A stretch of 64,000 nt of DNA, taken from NCBI RefSeq assembly GCF_014696615.1, contig NZ_JACJQJ010000025.1, positions 1 to 64,000 of the forward strand, written 5' to 3'. The DNA comes from Nostoc linckia FACHB-104. Its GTDB lineage: Bacteria > Cyanobacteriota > Cyanobacteriia > Cyanobacteriales > Nostocaceae. The position numbers and the translations under genes are program-made. Shown here piece after piece: positions 9,355 through 42,818 of the stretch; within the stretch, counting starts at the first letter, position 1, and each line of letters starts with the position of its first letter. Below the pieces are notes generated by a model. The model was not told the DNA's origin, did not search any database, and was given only the letters and a program-made list of their open reading frames with translations.

Positions 9355-10539
9355 TTATTCGTAGTGGATACCAGCTTGTTTAAATCTGTGCAGAACTTCA
9401 CCCAAGCGATCGCAATCTGCAATTAAACTGATCCTGACATATCCTTCGCCGGCAACACCAAAGGCATTACCAGGAGTGACGACAACGCCGGTTTGTTGCA
9501 GGACATCTAGAGCGAAATCTGTAGAACCAACGCCTACAGGACATTTCACCCAGAGATACATTGTGGCTTTGGTTTTAGGAATATCCCAACCCAGTTTGCC
9601 TAACCCTTCAATCAGGAAATCGCGGCGAGTGCGATAGCGTTGTTGGACTTCATGCAAATAGACATCTGGCAATTGCAAGGCAGTTTCTGCGGCTGTTTGT
9701 AAGGCAGCAAAAATGCCATAGTCTAAGTTGGTTTTTAAAGTCCGCAAACCTTGGATCACATGACGATTCCCCACCACAAAGCCAACGCGCCAACCTGCCA
9801 TATTGTAGGTTTTGGATAAGGTGTGAAACTCTACACCAATCTCCTTGGCACCGGGAATTTCTAATAAACTAGTGGGTTGATAACCATCAAAGGCTAACTC
9901 GGCATAACACAAGTCATGTACTAAGAGAATTTCGTGTTTCCTAGCAAAAGCAACGATTTCTTCAAAAAATTCCCGAGGTGCGGTAGCTGCTGTGGGATTG
10001 CTGGGATAGTTGAAATAGAGGATTTTGGCTTTTTGCGCCACTTCATCAGGAATCGCCCCTAAATCAATTAGCCAGTCGTTCTCTGGCTTGAGAATCAAGC
10101 TGTAAACTTGCCCACCAGCGATTACCGGGCCGCGAAAATGGGCGGGGTAAGCAGGAGATGGTACTAGAACGATATCACCAGGATTGATATAGGCGATCGC
10201 TAAATGAGTTAATCCTTCTTTGGAACCCAGTAGGGGCAAAGCTTCACTATCGGGATCGAGAGAGACACCATAACGGCGATCGTACCAATTGGTAATGGCA
10301 CGACGGAAACTTGCAGTCCCTTCAAACGGTGGATAGCCATGATTGGCAGGATTTTGCAAAGCTGCCATTGCTGCTTCTACCACCGGTTGCGGTGTCGGCC
10401 CATCCGGGTTTCCCATCCCCAAATCAATCAAATCTAACCCTTGCTCCCTCGCCTTTGCCTTTAGCTCATCTAAACGAGCAAATACATAAGGTGGTAGCTT
10501 CTGTATGCGATCTGCTGGGACAATCCAATCGAAACTCAT
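9355..10539 (-). CDS. PLP aminotransferase, AlaC/aspartate-aminotransferase family
   Basis: A 394-aa class I/II aminotransferase. It has the N-terminal block LPPYVF, GMGNPDGPTP and HGYPPFEG, the cofactor Asp and Tyr (D209, Y212 in VHDLCYAE), and the Schiff-base lysine K243 in SKTYNMAGWR. The order and wording of these blocks recall E. coli AlaC (YfdZ), a glutamate-pyruvate aminotransferase, and the related LL-diaminopimelate aminotransferases. Annotations of such cyanobacterial proteins as aspartate aminotransferase are common, so the substrate is uncertain. The start overlaps the stop of the upstream dehydrogenase by four bases (ATGA), which implies translational coupling and a shared pathway. 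Confidence 0.9.
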   Translation of the reverse strand: MSFDWIVPADRIQKLPPYVFARLDELKAKAREQGLDLIDLGMGNPDGPTPQPVVEAAMAALQNPANHGYPPFEGTASFRRAITNWYDRRYGVSLDPDSEALPLLGSKEGLTHLAIAYINPGDIVLVPSPAYPAHFRGPVIAGGQVYSLILKPENDWLIDLGAIPDEVAQKAKILYFNYPSNPTAATAPREFFEEIVAFARKHEILLVHDLCYAELAFDGYQPTSLLEIPGAKEIGVEFHTLSKTYNMAGWRVGFVVGNRHVIQGLRTLKTNLDYGIFAALQTAAETALQLPDVYLHEVQQRYRTRRDFLIEGLGKLGWDIPKTKATMYLWVKCPVGVGSTDFALDVLQQTGVVVTPGNAFGVAGEGYVRISLIADCDRLGEVLHRFKQAGIHYE

Positions 10540-11726
10540 TGCTCAACCTCGTCACTGATACCCCTGACTGAGACGCGATTTGTCGTGTCTCGACTATCTA
10601 CTGGTGCAGTGGTAGAAACCATCGCTGCCATTAACTGTTCCAGCGCTACTTTAAAAGGTAGTCGATGGATATCGGAATTCGGATTGAGGGCGATTTCCGC
10701 AGCAGTTTGCAGTTCAGCTAGGGTAATATTGCCCAATCCCAAATCACTCAATTTTTGTGGCAATCCAATCTCTGCATAGAATTTCACTAGCTGTTGTCTG
10801 GATGTGGCTGCTAGTTGATTGCCTTGTACCATTTCTTCTAAACGCAGTTGCACTAAGATGCCATAGGCAACTTTTTCACCGTGAATACTGCTATGTCCCG
10901 CAATGTGAGTTAAACCATTATGCACTGCATGGGCAGCAACGGTACGGCACTGTGCGCCTCCTAGTCCCCCAACTACCCCAGCCATCAACACTGAAGCATC
11001 TACGACTGCTTGCCAATCTTCACTACCTGGCGCTTGCAAGGCGGTGACTGACTTTTGTAATAAAATATCACGCAAAACCCGTGCTTGTTGCACAGCACCA
11101 ATGATCAAAGTTTGTTGGGAATGTCCACTACTGACTGAAGCTTCGTACCACTTGGCGATCGCATCTCCAATTCCCGCTACTAAGGTATGCTGTGGTGCGG
11201 TTTGAATCAAGTCGTAATCCAGGATAAGCAAATCGGGACAGCGAGATAGCGCCACGTCATAAAGAAACGCCCCATCCTCAGAATACACATTCGAGAGGGC
11301 AGACCAAGCCGCACAGGTCGCCGCTGAGGTGGGAATTGTCACCACTGGTAATTGCAACTGATGGGCTACTAACTTTGCTGTATCCAGTGCTTTACCACCA
11401 CCAACACCGATAATCAAATCAGCTTTATGTGCTTTTGCTGCTTTTTGCAAAGATTGCAAGCTAGCTTCACAGCAATCTGCACCATAGTCAGCTGCGGCGA
11501 TATCTAGATGTTCTTGTTCTAAAATTGGCTGCAAACTTTCTTTGGTAATCGCCAGAGTTTGCTTTCCCGCCACAATTAAGGGACGATTCCCTAAACGCGC
11601 AATCTCTGTTGATGCCGTCTGCAATATACTGGAACCACGAATTACTTTTGCTGGCGCGATCGCCAACGTCAATAATGAACTAGGTGTTTGAGTAGACAAG
11701 GTTTGAGTAGAAATTTGATTGGGCAT
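10536..11726 (-). CDS. Iron-containing alcohol/glycerol dehydrogenase family protein
   Basis: A 396-aa protein of the metal-dependent alcohol dehydrogenase / glycerol dehydrogenase superfamily. The Rossmann part has GVGGGKALDTAK (NAD(P) pyrophosphate loop, about residues 112-123) and IPTSAATCAAWS. The metal site is suggested by Asp in GIGDAIAKWYE and by His residues in AAHAVHNGL and HSSIHGEKVAYG. This is the glycerol-dehydrogenase-like layout; the true substrate is unknown. It is the first gene of a two-gene unit on the minus strand and overlaps the aminotransferase by four bases. A dehydrogenase feeding a keto acid or aldehyde to an aminotransferase is a reasonable inference but not proven. 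Confidence 0.85.
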   Translation of the reverse strand: MPNQISTQTLSTQTPSSLLTLAIAPAKVIRGSSILQTASTEIARLGNRPLIVAGKQTLAITKESLQPILEQEHLDIAAADYGADCCEASLQSLQKAAKAHKADLIIGVGGGKALDTAKLVAHQLQLPVVTIPTSAATCAAWSALSNVYSEDGAFLYDVALSRCPDLLILDYDLIQTAPQHTLVAGIGDAIAKWYEASVSSGHSQQTLIIGAVQQARVLRDILLQKSVTALQAPGSEDWQAVVDASVLMAGVVGGLGGAQCRTVAAHAVHNGLTHIAGHSSIHGEKVAYGILVQLRLEEMVQGNQLAATSRQQLVKFYAEIGLPQKLSDLGLGNITLAELQTAAEIALNPNSDIHRLPFKVALEQLMAAMVSTTAPVDSRDTTNRVSVRGISDEVEQ

Positions 11727-12366: not shown

Positions 12367-12650
12367 GCAAAATCCTTACCCTACAACAAAAATATCAGTC
12401 TTAGGGTAGAGAAATTTATGCTGGATGATTGATGCAAACAACACAATCTCAGAAAATCCCAAAAAAAGAGAATAGCTCAACAGGGAAGAAAAACCTTGAA
12501 GGTCAAAAGCACAGGAGAACGTAGAAGGCATGAAAATCTCTCCTTTTGGAATAAAAGGTGTTTTTAATTCACATTAGGCGTAATTTATAAAACGTCAAAG
12601 CCAGAGAACAAAATACTTTTGACTTCCGCCTTACAGTACTAGTCCTCTCC

Positions 12651-12776
12651 CAATACTTGTCGGTTAAGGGCAAAAGGGGAAGGGGTAAAGGGGCAAGAAA
12701 AAACCTTTAACCCTTACCCTTTCACCTTTTCTCCAAACCAAATTAAGAGTTGAAAATCCTTAACCAAGCAGTATTG
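12651..12776. mobile_element. Miniature transposable element, copy 1 (126 bp)
   Basis: The element starts CAATACTTGTCGGTTAAGG and ends with the imperfect inverted copy CCTTAACCAAGCAGTATTG, giving terminal inverted repeats of about 19 bp. The inside is an imperfect hairpin of G/A-rich and C/T-rich arms with no coding capacity. It is flanked by exact 10-bp direct repeats AGTCCTCTCC (12641-12650 and 12777-12786), a target-site duplication. The ends resemble those I recall for IS4, whose family makes duplications of this size, so an IS4-type transposase probably moved it. Other copies are at 12798-12908 and 41621-41746. Confidence 0.88.
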
Positions 12777-12797
12777 AGTCCTCTCCAGGGTAGGGGT

Positions 12798-12908
12798 CAA
12801 TACTTGTCGGTTAAGTGCAAAAGGGCAAGACAAAACCTTTAACCCTTCCCCTTTCACCTTTTCCCCAAACCAAATTAAGAGTTGAAAATCCTTAACCGAG
12901 CAGTATTG
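12798..12908. mobile_element. Miniature transposable element, copy 2 (111 bp)
   Basis: Same ends and orientation as the copy at 12651-12776, with a shorter first inner arm. It is flanked by its own exact 10-bp direct repeat GGGTAGGGGT (12788-12797 and 12909-12918). Because both duplications differ, the two copies are independent insertions 21 bp apart, not a tandem duplication. Confidence 0.88.
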
Positions 12909-13141
12909 GGGTAGGGGTTGTTTTCAACCTGGCTAATGGCGGTGGTTTTTGTCGTAAATATGCGTTTTTTTGCTGAAAAGGGGAAAACTAATACTGAAGT
13001 CAGATACCTTTATGGATTGCAACACTTCTTGATGGCAAGCGATATGCTGCTAGCGATCGCCTTTGCTATTGCAGTCGAATTTTAGCCATTACATCTCAAA
13101 CCAAGTTTGATTAGCAATCTATCTGTTTACTCTATTCTAAT

Positions 13142-14791
13142 ATGTTCAACCAATCCAAAATTTCCTTAAAACCTCAGTTGCCTCAGATTGCAGTCAAACT
13201 GAAGCCCAAGCTATCAACATGGTCTATATTAATTGCTGCAATTACGGTGGCGATCGCTAGTTCTACTGCTATTTATCAACTCCATCAAATAGCAGAAGAT
13301 AGCAATCAAAGCAGATTACTCTTAACTAGAGTAAAAGAGCAAGTAAGCAGACTCAATGCTTTAGAATGGGAAGGAATTTCTAAAGGAAAAATTGATGATG
13401 ACTTAACTGATGAACTGGCTGAAAATAAACAAAGTAGCGCTACAATCTTGCGAGAGCTAAAGGAACTTGATAAACGCGATAATCTAAAAAATTTGCAAAG
13501 GGTTTTTGCTCTCTATAGTCGCTATCAAACTGAAATTAACAAGGCTCTAGAGTTAGTTTCCCAAAGTAAAATCAAAGAAGCACTAGCTATTGATGCAGAT
13601 GGTATTGATGAAATCTATGATGATTTATATGCTGAGGTAACAACCCTAGAGGCAGCTTATGTAAAGCAGAAACAACACACCAGAAATCTAGCAGATATAG
13701 GCACAAGTTTTGCTTTAATTTTATCAGCTACTATCATTGGCGTTTTATCTCATAAATTTACCCGAAATTTGTGGCATAAAAATCAAGAGTTAGAAAACGC
13801 CTTTAAAGAACTTCAGCAAACCCAGAATCAATTAATTCAACAAGAAAAAATGGCAGCCTTGGGGCAACTAATTGCTGGGGTTGCTCATGAAATCAATAAC
13901 CCTCTAGGCATTATCAAAGCATCAGCAAGCAACACCAATCAGGCATTACAAGAAGCCTTAGCTAATCTTCCTTCCTTAAATCAGCGTCTGCATTCTGAGG
14001 AACAAGAAAGCTTGTTTGCGCTGATCGCTCAGGCGCTGAAAAATCAAGGTGCAGTTACCTCTAAAGAAAGCCGCGCTCTAAAACGCAAAATTGCTACTTA
14101 TCTTCAAGAGTATGACATTCAAGATGCTAGATATACTGCTGATCTCTTGCTCGACATGGGTATTGGTGAAGATCTGGAATTTTTGTTGCCTGTCTTACAA
14201 GGAAATAATACTGAATGGGTTGTGCAGTTTGCATACAACCTAACTTCCTGCTTTAGCAGTAATCAGATGATTCTGAATGCTGTCGATCGCTCCGCCAAAA
14301 TTGTTTTTGCCCTGAAAAGCTATTCTCATTTCGATCACAGTGGTCAAAAGCAGTTAATGCAAGTGACTGAAGGGCTAGAAACCACGCTGGCAATATATCA
14401 AAATCAACTCAAACGCAATATTAATCTAATTCGGGATTATCAAGATATTCCCGATATTTGGGTATATTCTGACGAACTCATTCAAGTTTGGACAAACCTG
14501 ATTTTTAACGCAATTCAAGCGATGGAATCAGGGGGGACGTTAACCATTACCACTCATCAGCAAGAAAATGGTGTTGAAGTGAATATTATAGATACGGGAT
14601 CTGGGATTCCAGAAACAGTCAGGCAAAAAATCTTCGATGCCTTCTTTACTACCAAAGCTGCTGGTGAAGGTAGTGGTTTAGGGCTACATATTTGTAAGAA
14701 GATTATTGATAAACACCAAGGACGTATAAAAGTAGAGAGTCAACCAGGACAGACTGAATTCAGTGTTTGGTTACCATTAGAGTCTGTTTAG
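13142..14791 (+). CDS. Membrane-bound sensor histidine kinase with extended DHp domain
   Basis: A 549-aa sensor kinase. Two membrane segments (about 27-46 and 183-204) bracket a helical sensor region of about 135 residues with no recognisable ligand motif. A coiled linker (210-236) leads to the H-box GQLIAGVAHEINNPLG with H249 as phosphoacceptor. About 115 residues of extra helical sequence then separate this helix from the second dimerisation helix (VDRSAKIVFALKSYSHFD, about 382-399), where most kinases have a short turn. The ATPase domain has the N-box WTNLIFNAIQAM, DTGSGIP and GSGLGLHI. The next gene, 21 bases downstream, encodes a receiver protein, its likely partner. The input signal is unknown. 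Confidence 0.92.
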   Translation: MFNQSKISLKPQLPQIAVKLKPKLSTWSILIAAITVAIASSTAIYQLHQIAEDSNQSRLLLTRVKEQVSRLNALEWEGISKGKIDDDLTDELAENKQSSATILRELKELDKRDNLKNLQRVFALYSRYQTEINKALELVSQSKIKEALAIDADGIDEIYDDLYAEVTTLEAAYVKQKQHTRNLADIGTSFALILSATIIGVLSHKFTRNLWHKNQELENAFKELQQTQNQLIQQEKMAALGQLIAGVAHEINNPLGIIKASASNTNQALQEALANLPSLNQRLHSEEQESLFALIAQALKNQGAVTSKESRALKRKIATYLQEYDIQDARYTADLLLDMGIGEDLEFLLPVLQGNNTEWVVQFAYNLTSCFSSNQMILNAVDRSAKIVFALKSYSHFDHSGQKQLMQVTEGLETTLAIYQNQLKRNINLIRDYQDIPDIWVYSDELIQVWTNLIFNAIQAMESGGTLTITTHQQENGVEVNIIDTGSGIPETVRQKIFDAFFTTKAAGEGSGLGLHICKKIIDKHQGRIKVESQPGQTEFSVWLPLESV

Positions 14792-41477: not shown

Positions 41478-41620
41478 CGTTGCACAAACATGGGATGAAA
41501 TAATATTCACATAATGTTCGCGACAGATAAATTTTTGTAGGGGCACGGCACTAGTAGGATTATTTGATAACCTAAAAGATTGTGGTTGCCATCCCCCTAC
41601 TTATCTAACACCAAGCTACT

Positions 41621-41746
41621 CAATACTGCTCGGTTAAGGATTTTCAACTCTTAATTTGGTTTGGGTAAAAGGTGAAAGGGTAAGGGTTAAAGGTTTTTTC
41701 TTGCCCCTTTACCCCTTCCCCTTTTGCCCTTAACCGACAAGTATTG
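41621..41746. mobile_element. Miniature transposable element, copy 3 (126 bp)
   Basis: Same element as at 12651-12776 and the same length, in the opposite orientation (CAATACTGCTCGGTTAAGG first, ending CCGACAAGTATTG). Exact 10-bp direct repeats CCAAGCTACT flank it (41611-41620 and 41747-41756). The right repeat includes one base of the methyltransferase stop codon (41756-41758), so the element landed at the very 3' end of that gene and now forms its hairpin-rich 3' region. Confidence 0.9.
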
Positions 41747-41755
41747 CCAAGCTAC

Positions 41756-42604
41756 TTAGTTATTATTAGCAATTTGTTTTGGAATTATCATTGTTGCGGC
41801 ATCTGCAGGCACCAGTTTACGACCATTTTGTTCAGTTATATGAGATGCTAAAATCTGTAAAATTTCGTCCCGTTGATCCCTAGAAAGCAAACTGGAATCA
41901 GCTTGGCAGAAGAAATCTATTAATGCTTTCCCTTCCGCAGTATTCTCTTCAAAGCAAACCCTGACATCCATATATTCTGGATAATTTACTAATTCAGAGG
42001 ACAATCCCATTTCTGCAACGATTGTCTGTATTGTACTCATCCAAGGCATTTCTGTAATGCCCTGTCCTGTCAGTGCAGCATACCTGACGATAGTATCGTA
42101 GATGACTGCATCGGTGGTATCAAGAGTGATAATTACAAAGCCATCATCTTTAAGCATCCCCAACGTTTTCTGTATCAGATGCTTCTCTAAATTAGGCATA
42201 TGATACATTGAGTGGGTAAAGTGAATGATATCGAACTTTTCATCTAGCTGAAGTTCTTCGATTTTTTCTGAATAAACCTTTAACTCAACATCAGCAAACT
42301 CTGAGATGTTGATTCTTTGTTCGTAACGTTGCCGATGTAAAGGGTTAGGCTCAATAGCTATGTAACGCAGCGTGATTTCTCTTGGTAGCTGTTGCTTCAG
42401 ACTACGTATTACTTGTACATCAAAATCTCCCGGCCCTGCTCCCACACTTAACACTGATACTTGTGGAGGGTAGGGCTTAAGATATTTTTGCATCAAATCG
42501 AGCGCAATTTGACGATTTACCTGCCAGTTTGCAAGGAAAACTTGATAGCCTACATCATAGGCTTCATACAACTTCCCTAGTTCTAATTGAGTAGAGCCAG
42601 CCAT
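41756..42604 (-). CDS. SAM-dependent methyltransferase, histamine-N-methyltransferase-like
   Basis: About 282 aa, class I SAM-dependent methyltransferase. The SAM site is VLSVGAGPGDFDVQVI, the acidic partner is the Glu in YIAIEPNP, and post-motif blocks include FDIIHFTHSMYHMPNLEKHL and DDGFVIITLDTTD. Comparing from memory, the order LSxGxGxGxxDxQ, IHxxxxxYxxxx and a C-terminal block xxDFF/L resembles animal histamine N-methyltransferase, which would point to a small amine substrate, but this is inference. I chose the ATG at 42604 with GAGG ten bases upstream; a TTG at 42619 overlaps that site. The stop codon touches a miniature-element target duplication. Confidence 0.82.
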   Translation of the reverse strand: MAGSTQLELGKLYEAYDVGYQVFLANWQVNRQIALDLMQKYLKPYPPQVSVLSVGAGPGDFDVQVIRSLKQQLPREITLRYIAIEPNPLHRQRYEQRINISEFADVELKVYSEKIEELQLDEKFDIIHFTHSMYHMPNLEKHLIQKTLGMLKDDGFVIITLDTTDAVIYDTIVRYAALTGQGITEMPWMSTIQTIVAEMGLSSELVNYPEYMDVRVCFEENTAEGKALIDFFCQADSSLLSRDQRDEILQILASHITEQNGRKLVPADAATMIIPKQIANNN

Positions 42605-42818
42605 GCACGTTAACCTCAATATTCTGAACTTCTTTTCTCAAAATATCGAAAGTGTTCATGAATATTGCAACAATTCAACTTATCATCAGATGATTTATCA
42701 AAACATAACTTTAGGAAATATTTTTTATAACTATCTAGGTCAATAAATTTCTCTTGGTAAAAGAATAAATTTTCTTACCTCATATTAGCCTTCAAGGAAC
42801 CTGATATATAACGCTTGG

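Follow-up and report, generated by a model that had tools for sequence, protein, structure and literature searches.

A high-copy miniature transposon family of Nostoc linckia with ends matching IS4-family elements of related cyanobacteria

Two short repeats standing almost end to end in Nostoc linckia FACHB-104 raise the questions of what they are, whether each arrived on its own, and what moved them there. They lie in the window, by which is meant the whole 64,000-nucleotide stretch analyzed here (contig NZ_JACJQJ010000025.1, positions 1 to 64,000), in a 1.4-kb gap between the divergent ORFs 10536-11726 (- strand) and 13142-14791 (+ strand). An earlier note on this DNA had read them as two adjoining miniature transposons (MITEs) of 126 and 111 bp, each with an exact 10-bp target duplication, and direct reading and a repeat search both confirm this (Table 1). 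The window also holds a third copy, absent from that account and 98% identical to copy 1, whose right duplication abuts the stop-codon end of ORF 41756-42619 (- strand).

Table 1. Positions of the three MITE copies and their target duplications in the window.
Feature	Positions	Strand	Sequence or structure	Basis
MITE copy 1	12651-12776	+	126 bp; inverted ends 12651-12669 and 12758-12776	
Left 10-bp target duplication, copy 1	12641-12650		AGTCCTCTCC	direct reading and repeat search
Right 10-bp target duplication, copy 1	12777-12786		AGTCCTCTCC	direct reading and repeat search
MITE copy 2	12798-12908	+	111 bp; inverted ends 12798-12815 and 12891-12908	
Left 10-bp target duplication, copy 2	12788-12797		GGGTAGGGGT	direct reading and repeat search
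Right 10-bp target duplication, copy 2	12909-12918		GGGTAGGGGT	direct reading and repeat search
MITE copy 3	41621-41746	-	126 bp; 98% identity to copy 1	
Left 10-bp target duplication, copy 3	41611-41620		CCAAGCTACT	
Right 10-bp target duplication, copy 3	41747-41756		CCAAGCTACT	

With no ORF of 100 aa or more within the pair, these are short, non-coding units with terminal inverted repeats (84% complementary over 19 bases in copy 1, 89% over 18 bases in copy 2), and the proposal of a non-autonomous element is supported. The right end is CAATACTGCTCGGTTAAGG in copies 2 and 3 and differs by one base in copy 1. Within the left arm of the first copy, at positions 12668-12693, four closely spaced runs of 3-4 G may form a G-quadruplex. 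Since copies 1 and 2 are adjacent, point in the same direction and are 94% alike over 90 nt (repeat search), copy 2 might be thought to have arisen by tandem duplication of copy 1, and in contig C90 of the related genome G004 a MITE fragment does lie within a 147-bp tandem duplication; for the window pair, however, such an origin is ruled out for practical purposes by the two different exact 10-bp duplications, and copy 2 also differs in length. Separate insertions, as the earlier note had it, are supported by these same duplications. No relative was found in which one copy is present alone and the target of its neighbor is undisturbed; G004 has both.

A single base, 12787, separates the two targets, so that both insertions do fall in the same 21-bp area, as the earlier note had claimed, although this is not in itself remarkable. 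If 150 copies were placed uniformly, about 0.05 pairs within 21 bp would be expected per genome, rising to about 0.2 were insertion confined to a quarter of the genome (copy number and target fraction are both assumptions of the estimate). Because 0.05-0.2 pairs per genome are expected, no hotspot is claimed. A second true side-by-side pair, with its own two duplications, occurs in genome G003 (L183 / L261 416-684), where the 10-bp targets have 3 bases in common. The 147-bp spacing in G004 C90 (L245, 53900-55200) was excluded as a pair, being instead the tandem duplication mentioned above.

How large is the family to which these copies belong? A DNA search found at least 41 matching places in the FACHB-104 genome, a lower bound, since 40 of 271 candidates were scored. 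The 18-base end, with up to three mismatches, occurs 307 times in the genome (10 for a reversed control) and seven times in the window (0.05 expected from shuffles). As the 307 matches take in both ends of most copies, the genome probably holds about 150 copies. Two loci, L048 (1501-1722) and L037, appear by eye to be MITE copies broken up by other repeat-like sequence.

Target duplications were scored in 82 independent insertions, which are the 89 unique ones less three of 200 bp or more and four merged for near-identical flanks. The 10-bp duplication is exact in 58, has one mismatch in 15 and two or more in nine, so that 73 of the 82 fall within one mismatch; exact duplications of 6-9 or 11-13 bp were found in none of them, and shuffled pairings of flanks gave 0 duplications. 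Copies with 10-bp duplications, which the earlier note had suggested seeking across this genome and its relatives, are thus plentiful, and chance repeats are ruled out by these duplications together with the end counts against shuffles and the reversed control. The 73 copies show a weak, roughly symmetric target preference. Of the 67 copies flanked on either side by 600 bp or more and with no more than one mismatch, four interrupt an ORF of at least 100 aa, whereas 65% of random positions drawn from these loci fall within such an ORF.

Comparison with sister strains adds empty sites. G004, whose sequence is mostly 91-97% identical to the FACHB-104 contig in long pieces, lacks copy 3: the right flank there follows a single CCAAGCTACT (87% over 162 bases). 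L180 has the empty site of another FACHB-104 copy, L013 (99%, 200 bp), while a Nostoc carneum copy (L148) has its empty counterpart in FACHB-104 (L053; 95.5%, 200 bp), and a partial empty match to the FACHB-104 copy L009 was found in L141 (90% over 159). In these four comparisons occupied and empty sites differ in both directions, which allows insertions to be dated, as the earlier note had hoped that empty sites would. They also bear on the idea that the repeats are not mobile at all, being hairpin units kept by the host for a structural or regulatory role. Both strands of copies 1 and 2 do fold far better than shuffles (z -4.0 to -5.1), and nearly all insertions are intergenic; inverted ends, however, fold by construction, an intergenic bias is explained by selection against gene hits, and the 10-bp duplications and the empty sites in both directions show insertion. 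This reading is very improbable.

The family extends well beyond one strain. In a search of eight genomes of the genus, the MITE was present in seven, with at least 41 matches in G002 (4 contigs), and no match was found in G001. The last of these holds another MITE family, 137-232 bp long, whose ends are CAATACTGCTCGGTTAAG; of six places fetched, L246, L248, L249 and L250 have 10-bp duplications (one exact, three with one mismatch) and L247 and L251 have one end only. Across the family Nostocaceae, 82 of 145 genomes match the MITE at E <= 1e-3, many weakly or partially, and in 22 the best match reaches E <= 1e-20. An exact 41-base pattern with three free positions retrieved 43 stretches in named genomes, mostly Nostoc carneum NIES-2107 and Calothrix membranacea FACHB-236, with others in Amazonocrinis nigriterrae and further Nostoc and Calothrix, and 11 plasmid records of Nostoc, Tolypothrix, Microchaete and Aulosira also contain a match.

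Which transposase could move such an element? The earlier note had named an IS4-type enzyme, recalling that IS4-family duplications are about 10 bp long, which fits the 10-13 bp published for the IS4 subgroup (De Palmenaer et al., 2008, PMC2266710). By eye, the MITE ends CAATACTTGTCGGTTAAGG also fit the subgroup signature given in Table 1 of that paper, -AATR--------WTW----. A search for the IS4 N-terminal domain across the eight genomes of the genus led to a 1474-bp element in G001 (L094) with ends CAATACTTTTCGGTTAAG, the duplication GGAATCGACC and one long ORF encoding a 408-aa transposase, and to three copies of a larger IS4 element in G003, all on one contig. Relatives on a plasmid of Tolypothrix sp. 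PCC 7712 have their genes annotated as IS4 family transposase and hypothetical protein, and transposases of this type have a match in 72 of the 145 family genomes. Also found, in G006, was a 417-bp internally deleted IS4 derivative (L096 1395-1811) that retains the two ends and part of the transposase N-terminus and has no 10-bp duplication.

In all, 26 IS entries were compared, being 36 with the 10 that lack an end pair removed; relatives below 40% identity and L065/L099 were excluded, L094 and L108 are the same place, and one sequence is represented twice, as L095 and L100. Nterm_IS4 and DDE_Tnp_1 score over the cut-off in L094, L095 and L122, as does the NCBIfam IS4 equivalog NF033592, and the YREK motif, Y(2)R(3)E(6)K, is present in 22 of the 26, the DDE class being taken from the profile matches. 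A 10-bp duplication is exact in 14 entries, with one mismatch in one and two in another; the remaining 10, both G003 entries included, show four or more mismatches and hence no 10-bp duplication. By length and end the elements fall into type A (1473-1501 bp, TTTTCGG, with GGTTCGG also in that length class), type B (1485-1568 bp, GGTTCAG) and type C (2150-2210 bp, TGCTCGG or TGTTCGG).

Type-C ends (L122, L125, L127, L129) are CAATACTGCTCGGTTAAGG at both ends, 19 of 19 bases, and thus the sequence that forms the right end of MITE copies 2 and 3. The MITE left end is 2 of 19 bases off types A and C, and some FACHB-104 copies have the type-A form TTTTCGG. Past the terminal 18-25 bases no similarity was found between the MITE and the 26 compared elements, and because it stops there the MITE did not arise from any of these by recent internal deletion. 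Such a transposase occurs in 17 of the 22 genomes with a strong MITE match and in 55 of the 123 others (one-sided p 0.004, kinship ignored). Elements of the IS4 family with these ends, for which the earlier note had proposed a search of related genomes, are therefore present in congeners and in the wider family, and its claim of an IS4-type mover is well supported as to kind, by the matching ends in relatives and the 14 of 26 exact 10-bp duplications.

The companion claim, that this mover resides in the FACHB-104 genome itself, is not supported: no IS4 element with these ends was found among its 181 draft contigs. Its 25 DDE_Tnp_1 loci have no such ends at up to four mismatches and were rejected as movers. 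The only Nterm_IS4 hit, L099 (the same as L065), has 26% identity, and no such ends were found there within five mismatches. Nine type-C-like end matches do occur, but as they fall on nine different contigs they form no end pair. Twelve orphan or contig-end loci, viewed by eye over 260 bases each, contained no recognizable IS interior and look like truncated, interrupted or altered MITE copies. An unassembled copy of the mover may be present in the 181-contig draft. Among the seven MITE-carrying genomes of the genus, only G003 has an uninterrupted full-length close relative among the entries listed; the best entries of G004, G006 and G007 are fragments, G002 (4 contigs) and G005 gave no transposase match at E <= 1e-10, and G001 has the transposase and lacks the window's MITE. 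That the MITE abounds where its mover is missing raises the question of who moves it, and when the mover was lost.

One answer could be a transposase of another family that shares the same ends by coincidence. FACHB-104, G002 and G005 do carry the MITE with no close IS4-subgroup relative, and the exact left end CAATACTTGTC stands at no IS tip among the 26 entries. Against this, ends, duplication length and host range all coincide with those of IS4-family elements, and at the FACHB-104 loci inspected, 12 of them by eye, no end pair frames another transposase gene; this explanation is unlikely. The reading preferred here, with a probability of roughly 0.85 on sequence evidence, is that the pair belong to a single MITE family that an IS4-family transposase, subgroup IS4, mobilizes in trans, because of the 10-bp duplications, the high copy number, the empty sites, and the IS4 elements with matching ends in the same family, MITE-carrying G003 included. 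The transposase would bind the shared terminal repeats, excise the MITE and insert it at a target whose strands are cut 10 bases apart, and repair would then leave the 10-bp duplication. Copies 1 and 2 would be two independent events, both common to G004. The mover itself may have been lost, may be on an unassembled or lost replicon, or may have acted from a plasmid, as could its relatives on that of Tolypothrix sp. PCC 7712. In this way a defined transposase type is linked to a high-copy miniature family of filamentous cyanobacteria.

Beside the original question, the surprise of the analysis is an accessory module in the type-C elements. All seven type-C entries (six distinct sequences: L122 924-3073, L125, L126, L127, L129 and the two copies L095/L100) carry a second gene of about 126 aa, directed away from the transposase gene, and each has exactly three copies of the 23-bp palindrome GTTCKCG-N9-CGMGAAC, one 49-50 bp from one end, one 50-51 bp from the other and the third between both genes. 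The palindrome was found in none of the 19 other IS entries and nowhere in the 64-kb window, and the MITE is without it. For the accessory protein, a fold of one helix, three strands and a long helix is predicted (mean pLDDT 89.9); PDB-sequence and Foldseek searches gave no PDB match at E <= 0.001, and three sequences tested against Pfam and NCBIfam gave none at 0.01 (at 10, E 0.059 or worse).

Relatives of the module occur in other IS types, with arms that vary by element. In FACHB-104, the IS50/Tn5-type IS4 elements L079 and L081 have a homologous gene (45-46% identity) and the same three-site layout, the gene of L079 containing a stop, and a distant homologue (40%) lies beside an ISKra4-family transposase at L240, with three sites and GTTAGCG arms. 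A search of 292 genomes of the phylum detected the gene in 15. Among the 30 loci fetched from that search, L226, L228, L229 and L244 have no site within two mismatches and some others have one site only, the background being 2 in 120 kb. Ten further plasmid loci were chosen for divergence from 40 records; in eight, identical-arm palindromes flank the gene (GTTCGCG, ATTCGCG, GTTCTCT or GTTAGCG), and L266 and L275 fail this test. Arms within one mismatch occur in one of 414 random spans. Left out of the accessory-module sequences were L133 (stops within the range used) and L135 and L079 (in-frame stop).

A tentative model, to which we give not quite even odds, is that the candidate movers are two-component systems in which the ~126-aa protein binds the palindromes, coupling transposon control to the ends, and that the MITE, having kept the transposase ends and lost the palindromes, would escape such control, which would partly account for its spread. 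Both the binding and a role in transposition are inferred. If functional, accessory gene and palindromes would make up a transposition-control module passed between unrelated transposase types.

Among the literature matches listed, in a scope outside which most subscription papers fall, no description of the window MITE or of the accessory module was recognized. The MITE family is of an ordinary and well-shown kind, an IS4 type with its mover missing. It resembles the IS4 subgroup in ends that fit the published signature, in 10-bp duplications within the published range, and in IS elements with matching ends that have Nterm_IS4, DDE and YREK; it differs in that the window copies have no transposase or coding capacity. 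The type-C elements in turn depart from the single-orf transposases that PMC2266710 gives as a hallmark, since they add a second gene. Another short MITE of filamentous cyanobacteria is Nezha, for which mobilization by ISNpu3-like elements has been proposed (PMC3049150); the comparison is by description alone, not by sequence or ends. Similar, also by description, are the short, high-copy, mostly intergenic MITEs of another nostocalean genome, Anabaena sp. 90, where 132 of 147 are intergenic and where the authors, according to PMC3542288, saw no similarity to IS ends in that genome and assigned them to type II. The window MITE differs from these in having an IS family with matching ends, though in its relatives.
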